This document shows, piece after piece, positions 9,033 to 12,000 of a DNA stretch of 64,000 nt. Within the stretch, counting starts at the first letter, position 1, and the number at the start of each line of letters is the position of its first letter. A model generated the notes under the pieces. It worked only from the letters and a program-made list of their open reading frames with translations. It made no database searches and was not told the origin of the DNA. The position numbers and the translations under genes are program-made. This DNA comes from Hyperoplus lanceolatus (lineage: Eukaryota > Chordata > Actinopteri > Uranoscopiformes > Ammodytidae): the NCBI GenBank assembly GCA_026929865.2, contig CM049400.1, forward strand, positions 21,408,501 through 21,472,500, given 5' to 3'.

Positions 9033-12000
9033 CTTAATGGAAGGATTCAGGGAGGGGGAGGAGGGAAATAGACAGGAAGAAAGGAAATGTGATTGATTGG
9101 TCCATTAACACAACACACAGAGTACACTCACAAAAGGCTATATTGAAATTGGTCTTTTCGCATATCCCCTCACACACCACTCCAGAGGGGGTCCTCATAC
9201 AGAGTATCCATACAGCGCCCCTTGAGCAGTTTAAGGACACAATGGTAGAGATGGTGGGCAACGTAGATGTAATACCAGAAAACACTAGTTTTATAAATAA
9301 CACACTACTGATAGAATCAGCAACCTCATGGTAACTGGTCAGTCCCTCTTTCCTCTAGGCCATCCTACCACCATTACACACATTTTACGGGCCCTAAAGT
9401 AATGGCAATTAGCTACCCCCGGTGATGACAGACAGCTGCTGTCTACCCTCTATGATTTAAGATTGAATCCATGCCTGCTTCAGACACCTCTCTCCAGGCA
9501 TTGCTTTTTTTCCCCACGCTCACGTATCATATAAACAACTTGAGTCTTAGAAACTCCCGGAAAATGAAAAACTACAAATTTGGGCTTCTGAATGTCTCTT
9601 TGTAGATCCCGATAGGCAATGGCTTACAAAATCTCTTCATACCAGAGTTGAAGGACAGAGTTTTTGTGGACTGGAGTGAAAGAGGACTTTGCTGTATTGG
9701 AGATCTTAATGTTAATGATACATTTGCATCTTTTCTTCAGCTCCAATCCAAATATAACCTTCCTCAACCACATTTTTATTGCTACATTCAAGTCAGGCAT
9801 TTTGTACTGGAGTGTGTCCCAGAATTCGCAATCAAACAAAAGAGTAATGTTTTTTTGTTTTGTTTTATCTCACAACCAAACTCAAAACATTTGATATCCC
9901 GCCATGTTGCCATTCATAATCCGTACTAGAGTGGTGTTTGTGGATAAAACACACTGTAGCTCTGATTGTAAATGCTGACAGGTTCCTTCTGTCCCACAGA
10001 GGTCTGTTACAGGACACAGACACACCGTCTCCAACTTGAGAGCAGAAATCTGATCTTGTATTCCCCAAGAGTCAAGCAGACAGAGGGGAGTATTGTCAGA
10101 GTCGCTCATAAGCGTCTGTCCCTTAATCATATCCAACCTAGGATATCATCATGTTTCACTTGTACTGGATGTGTCAATCTCATTCACCAACAACAGAGGG
10201 TACAAAAAACACTAATAAAATAAAATAAGCCAAGCCTGTCTACTGAAAAAATAGCCTCTTCCTCTTTATATATATTAACACTTCCTGAGTCCAGATATCT
10301 AATTAAACAGACACAGCACTGATTGGATATTTAGGTTTCTATATTTGTAATGGTTATTATAAAATCTTGGGAACGCAAACCACATGGCTCGCTCTTAATT
10401 TGTAGGAAGGGTTTACATTTTTCTCAAATATGTCTTGGAACAGTAATTGAATGGCCTGTCCATACTAGATGAGTCAAGGCAAGCAGGCAACGACATTCGG
10501 AGGAGGGAGATAGGACACCACTTTCCAGTTAGACATACAGTACATATCAGTGTGTTAGCCACTGACCTAAAAAAGCTAACCCCAGTCAAGGAGGTGAAGA
10601 GGCTTCTGCTCTGTGCTCTGGGCCCCGCGGCGCAAAATAGCAGTGAGGAGCTTGGGTGGAGCTTAGACCTGAGTCTTCCGTTTATAAAACAATACCAACA
10701 AATGCTACTATGTTAAATGCAGCCAGAGAGAGGGGGACTGTGCAGATAAACACACCACCACATATTATAGTGGGGCAGAAGTTATCATTGAGAGGGATTA
10801 TTTTTGTGTGAGTCTATCATTTAATTATATTGTTGCATAGTATGCCTTTAAAGACCTCACTAGAAATGGTATTGCAATATCTTAAAATATATGACAGATG
10901 TATACCTTGCTAAACTTATTCATCAATGCATTAGCTTCAAAGCATGACAAAAATACTCGACTGTTATTGTACACCTGCACTGTACAGTATGCAAAGCCTC
11001 GACTTCATGTCATATAAGATGGCATGTGGTGGAGCCCTTTGCTGACGATATCACATTCTTCAGAGTGCCAAAGCAGCAACATTGCTCCTTCACTATAAAG
11101 AGAAGGGATTATAATTCATCTTTTGTTGAGGAGGCAAATCATGAGAAGGACTTTTGAAAAATATTGCAGAAAAAGCAGTACAGATTATGTCCAGCTTCTA
11201 AGCCTCTGCTGACATGCAGCTCCTGTCAAGTGAAGAGAAGAGGCTTCTGCGGCCATCTTTACTCAGTGTTGATCTGCCTCATCATTTTATGTTATGTTTA
11301 CAACAGGCAATAAGCAGAGAGGGGGTTTAATTTGTATTTCCCATGTTTGCAGCTTTCCATCTGAACCACTGTAACATAACTATAAATACACCAAGTAAAC
11401 ACAGCATCACCCCCCCCCCCCCCCCCGAAACACTTTACACTGGTTGGAACCAAATATAGCTGCTACATAGAGCCCTCCAATCTTAATTATAAAAAATACC
11501 CTCATCAAAAGCACCAAAAAGAAATACCAAAAATGCCTGTCCAATTACTGTAAAGCTCCAGGAGACAGAGACAACCATACGGATTGTGACGCTCCTCTCC
11601 AATCCTACATCGAAGAGGCAGAGATCGATTTTAAAATAGACAAAGCCGATAGCGCCTCCTTGTAAAGACGGAACCCTGGCTGACTTTGTGATGAGTTTAC
11701 CTGGAGGGTTGCTGGGTTGAACGCAGGGCAGAGGAGTGCCAGGGAGAGGGCTGACACTGGCAGACTCCTCCTGCCCCGTCAGGGACGGGTAGAGGGGCAG
11801 GACGCCCAGGGCCTTGCCCAGCATACGAGGCCCCAGGCTCAGCACGCGAACCTTCACATCCCGGTAGCAGTGGTTGATCATCCGCAGGTGGACGTTCACC
11901 CGCGTGGTGATACGGATCAGACACTTCACCATGGCTGCAGCATACGCGTGTTAAAATCCTGTCCTTACGATCCCTGTCCCTTCCCGGAGTCAAGGCCACA

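Follow-up and report, generated by a model that had tools for sequence, protein, structure and literature searches.

The 64,000-nucleotide window analysed here (C6:21408501-21472500, the whole stretch of DNA under study, in a searched genome of 806 Mb and 527 contigs) carries a minus-strand FERM gene with a 234-nt open segment in the intron before its last exon. This raises the question of whether the segment is coding and, if so, in which protein it is used. An earlier note had proposed a cassette exon inserted into the FERM-containing protein and had added a secondary suggestion, namely that the segment could supply a different N-terminus, without the FERM domain but with the membrane anchor.

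The host gene and the 234-nt segment

Joined exon peptides of the minus-strand gene pass the Pfam cut-offs of FERM_N, FERM_M, FERM_C and FA. A C-terminal membrane-anchor exon followed by a 19-residue stretch, a feature of the FRMD5/FRMD3 branch of the 4.1 superfamily, is also present, and we take the gene to be frmd5 of a fish. The linker exon of the long isoform (12976..13081, minus strand) ends in ISIME-G at a phase-1 donor (ATG GAG G|GTAAGA), and the coding part of the last exon (8443..9032, minus strand), which runs from LESLRD to the stop and is common to the long and the proposed short isoforms, begins in the matching phase. A hydrophobic stretch at 8596..8652 on the same strand, the best 19-residue hydropathy window (mean 3.44), is the likely membrane anchor.

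Two further features of the window were noted in passing. Past the last-exon stop, at approximately 8309-8280 on the minus strand, cag|ACACATACAGCTCGGACCACTCCTGGTAA could encode a different C-terminus (..DTYSSDHSW); inspection by eye showed no donor in the required phase. Positions 1-765 and 26688-27031 have near-identical translated copies in the locus of the related gene described below (C3 ~21160.3-21161.1k and 21146.3-21146.9k), and we therefore regard them as dispersed repeats.

Much of the earlier description of the segment was borne out. At 11934-11701 on the minus strand it is preceded by AG (11936-11935) and followed by GT (11700-11699), its length is divisible by three, its phase is 1/1, and its 78 codons contain no stop when read in the phase that the linker exon dictates. 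The translation consists of a junction alanine, 77 residues and then a junction glycine. The statement that G or C occupies almost every third position was right in direction, as GC is raised at position 3 (61/77 = 0.79; position 1, 0.65; position 2, 0.47), but "almost every" was generous.

Coding evidence and a related exon in frmd3

Coding potential was measured with a codon log-odds score trained on 1,099 codons from the listed exons of frmd5 and frmd3, with non-exonic sequence from these loci as background. The proposed frame scored 0.546 bits per codon, versus 0.243 and -0.127 for the other two forward frames and 0.369 or less for the reverse frames. None of 3,000 noncoding controls reached this value when each segment was taken in the best of its three same-strand frames (best, 0.404). 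Scored in 11-codon blocks, the sequence went from -5.0 right before an ATG at 11932, two bases into the segment, to +6.0 right after it, and stayed positive from the ATG as far as the donor; a block immediately past the donor, at 11701, scored +3.1 and was followed by mixed values.

Local GC at the segment rises to 0.58-0.60, which lengthens open frames, and an antisense open frame of 142 codons is found on the plus strand at 11684-12112. Together with the reverse-frame score of 0.369, these properties would fit a chance open frame in a GC-rich, noncoding part of the intron. The antisense frame is explained by high GC at its own third positions, and as a coding reading it was rejected on its score (0.369 vs. 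0.546) and on the position of the paralogue match, which sits in the minus-strand frame. A chance origin of the sense frame is opposed by the absence of any equally high score among the 3,000 noncoding segments and by a paralogous exon that occupies the equivalent position and has a donor of the same phase; we consider it extremely improbable.

The paralogous exon was found by comparing the exon peptide with the whole genome, in which the best non-self match lay at C3:21177018-21177128 (46% over 37 residues, E 0.0018). The next matches, on C10 (E 0.117), C21 (E 2.9) and C4 (E 4.37), were taken as chance; of these three loci, open frames were listed for the one on C10. The membrane-anchor exon had one other genome match at E <= 0.1, at C3:21181378-21181836, on the same strand as the motif match and 4.2 kb downstream of it. 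The 40 kb around this anchor match hold a colinear FERM gene in which FERM_N, FERM_M, FERM_C and FA all pass, and which, judged by the human protein, is presumably frmd3 (encoding protein 4.1O). Within the 40-kb locus the peptide match reached 40.0 bits (E 2.4e-8), and 1,000 shuffled peptides gave 26.6 bits at most. The exon holding the match follows those for the FERM and FA domains and the linker, and the last two coding exons lie downstream of it.

The two exons have in common a segment of 36 codons (11822..11929, minus strand, in frmd5) with the motif [KR]ITTRxx[VL]HLRxxNHxxRDVxVR; 17/36 residues are identical and 27/36 positive by blastp. Of the aligned codons, 22 agree at the first position, 26 at the second and 13 at the third, so that third positions diverge most, a mark of selection on the protein. 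The donor is in phase 1 in both exons (ACAGA|GTAAGA in frmd3), as it is in both linker exons. The paralogue match and the codon score thus support the earlier proposal of a real, coding and conserved exon of frmd5. By these measures the segment is real coding sequence, and the exon is very likely both real and old.

The frmd3 exon (C3:21176754-21177168) resembles that of frmd5 in lying between the FERM/FA exons and the anchor exon, and in carrying the 36-residue motif and a phase-1 donor. It differs in having its own ATG 88 codons ahead of the aligned part, in its length (138 vs. 77 codons), and in its splicing, which goes first to an additional exon (VVAVKDS...) and only then to the anchor exon. 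Its open frame begins with ATG GAG GTT at L012:754, two codons past an in-frame TGA, and continues to the donor; over its first 86 codons the score is 0.318 per codon, a value that 2 of 2,000 noncoding segments match. Block scores change from -9.2 to +5.3 at this ATG, although two blocks upstream of it are also positive (+4.7 and +3.4) and the motif block is negative (-1.4). Between 14250 and 8400 in the frmd5 window no similarity to the frmd3 exon was found beyond the motif. As its 88 pre-motif codons lack a counterpart there, the frmd5 and frmd3 starts differ, and an alternative frmd5 start with a frmd3-like N-terminus was rejected on this comparison. A possible further short frmd3 first exon, MTSCSSNCEASAVK, with a phase-1 donor (AAAA|GTAAG), was noticed at L012:4380-4422 (C3:21180380-21180422), roughly 175 nt ahead of the VVAVKDS exon.

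A Pfam search with the frmd5 and frmd3 exon peptides gave no match for either, and the best solved-structure match of the frmd5 exon peptide was one PDB entry at E 1.6. AlphaFold2 run on the single peptide gave a mean pLDDT of 59.6 and a pTM of 0.30, with a helix over residues 2-32 that we regard as unreliable. A pattern search for relatives produced 268 matches in prokaryote genome contigs and 29 in viral contigs, none of them confirmed.

Cassette insertion versus an alternative first exon

A cassette exon requires a working acceptor at 11936-11935, a site that the earlier note had called canonical. The AG is present, but the tract preceding it is poor, and the description does not hold. A matrix was built from the 27 acceptors of frmd5 and frmd3, and on it the AG at 11936-11935 scored -2.9, below the leave-one-out range of all 27 (-2.2 to 15.2). 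In favour of the site, its pyrimidine fraction of 0.58 equals that of the lowest of these 27, two of which also score below 0. On the minus strand of the window, 29% of 4,067 AGs score at least as well, and seven other AGs within 12975-11702 score 0.7 to 7.1. In frmd3, the highest-scoring AG whose phase would allow insertion reached -1.2, below 26 of the 27 acceptors. Use of the AG at 11936-11935 as an acceptor is unlikely by these scores.

These results bear directly on the proposal that transcripts for the FERM protein sometimes include the 78 codons between the linker and last exons. The phase, length and stop-free frame of the segment fit, AG and GT are in place, and a TTAAC resembling a branch point can be seen by eye some 17 nt upstream of the AG. 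The acceptor scores in both genes and the higher-scoring AGs nearby argue against insertion, as does the coding signal, which ends at the ATG. Cassette insertion therefore appears to be the weaker of the two earlier readings, and we regard it as unlikely.

The alternative N-terminus fits better, because the frame is closed by a stop 18 nt upstream of the ATG, because the coding signal begins at the ATG, and because the frmd3 exon is likewise opened by an ATG. The coding part of the exon (11701..11932, minus strand) extends from the ATG (11932-11930) over 77 codons and one base to a phase-1 5′ splice site (CCAG|GTAAAC, 11699..11700, minus strand) that joins in phase to the last exon. The AG formerly proposed as an acceptor (11935..11936, minus strand) overlaps the start-codon context, GCAGCCATGG, which is strong by the Kozak rule. 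The in-frame stop is a TAA at 11953-11951 (minus strand), and in-frame stops precede the ATGs of both frmd5 and frmd3. On this sequence evidence we propose, at a probability of roughly 0.78, that the segment serves mainly as coding sequence within an alternative frmd5 first exon. A combination of the two uses, in which a promoter-driven first exon is occasionally also reached through the AG, is compatible in phase, and weak acceptors can be usable in some tissues; the acceptor evidence that counts against the cassette applies to it equally, and we consider it quite improbable. The odds given to these rival explanations overlap.

Under the preferred reading, that of an alternative first exon, we infer that a promoter inside the gene, within the intron preceding the last exon, would drive transcription and that translation would initiate at the 11932 ATG. 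Splicing would join the phase-1 donor of the exon (11700) to the last exon at 9032, giving a product of 273 residues (77 + 1 + 195) without FERM or FA domains. In order, this predicted protein would comprise the conserved basic motif, a Pro/Ser-rich stretch, an acidic linker and the C-terminal membrane anchor, and the same arrangement is predicted for frmd3. The short form would presumably share the location and partners that the anchor gives the long form, without FERM-mediated linkage, and could either compete with the long form or do a separate job.

A candidate promoter element is found 310 nt upstream of the frmd5 ATG, where an E-box overlaps a one-mismatch MEF2-like site (CAGCTGAAAATAG, 12230..12242, minus strand). 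A similar pair, CACCTGTTTATTTATAG, lies 333 nt upstream of the frmd3 ATG. Including these two, nine such pairs occur in 168 kb, for which the window was scanned on both strands and the C3 locus on one. The element was chosen post hoc, and as the pair was spotted before the count was made, we take it as a hint only that the short form may be used in muscle or heart. Alignment of the regions upstream of the frmd5 and frmd3 ATGs was limited to short words. In the available text of the respective reports, FRMD5 transcripts occur in chicken breast muscle (PMC10812457, PMC12369168), FRMD5 appears in a mouse muscle iron-loading study (PMC2151772), and FRMD3 is found in fetal skeletal muscle among other tissues (PMC4696171), with isoforms in each case not split by this exon.

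Age, consequences and comparison with known systems

FRMD3 and FRMD5 both exist in human. An exon common to these paralogues should therefore be at least as old as the split between fish and land vertebrates, provided that the two genes separated before it, and its age makes human and mouse FRMD3 and FRMD5 worth checking for the exon. If the proposed first exon is correct, both genes encode a FERM adaptor and, in addition, a short anchored membrane protein without FERM, and knockouts or disease variants located upstream of the exon would leave the short form intact. A broader idea, to which we give tentative and rather doubtful standing, is that FRMD3 and FRMD5 inherited an ancestral internal promoter and first exon for a small FERM-less membrane protein of muscle or heart, built on an undescribed [KR]ITTR..HLR..NH..RDV.VR domain. 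Were this so, studies that treat these genes as FERM adaptors only, including those of FRMD3 disease associations, would have missed a second product.

No description of the frmd5 exon was found in the literature searched, which included few subscription journals. Splice variation in both genes is on record. A splice event in FRMD5 with apparently tissue-specific peptides is traceable to fish (PMC7561204), and human FRMD3 has 21 exons and seven splice variants (PMC4696171), with three protein isoforms detected by blotting (PMC4696171, PMC4706705). Given an FRMD5 event that reaches back to fish and seven FRMD3 variants, a short isoform starting at this exon may already be annotated in some species. 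The likeness of the human FRMD5 event to the exon described here lies in its conservation to fish, its exon and tissue being unspecified in the available text (PMC7561204). Human FRMD3 likewise resembles the proposed arrangement in having several isoforms, although an internal first exon with the motif is not stated in the accessible parts of these reports (PMC4696171, PMC4706705). One parallel is ADGRB1 (PMC11711277), as far as the available text describes it. That gene is unrelated, and its transcripts were shown, whereas the short form of frmd5 is proposed from sequence. The arrangement in ADGRB1 intron 17 is nonetheless the one proposed for frmd5: an internal promoter with its own first exon yields a product that shares the membrane part and drops the N-terminal domains.
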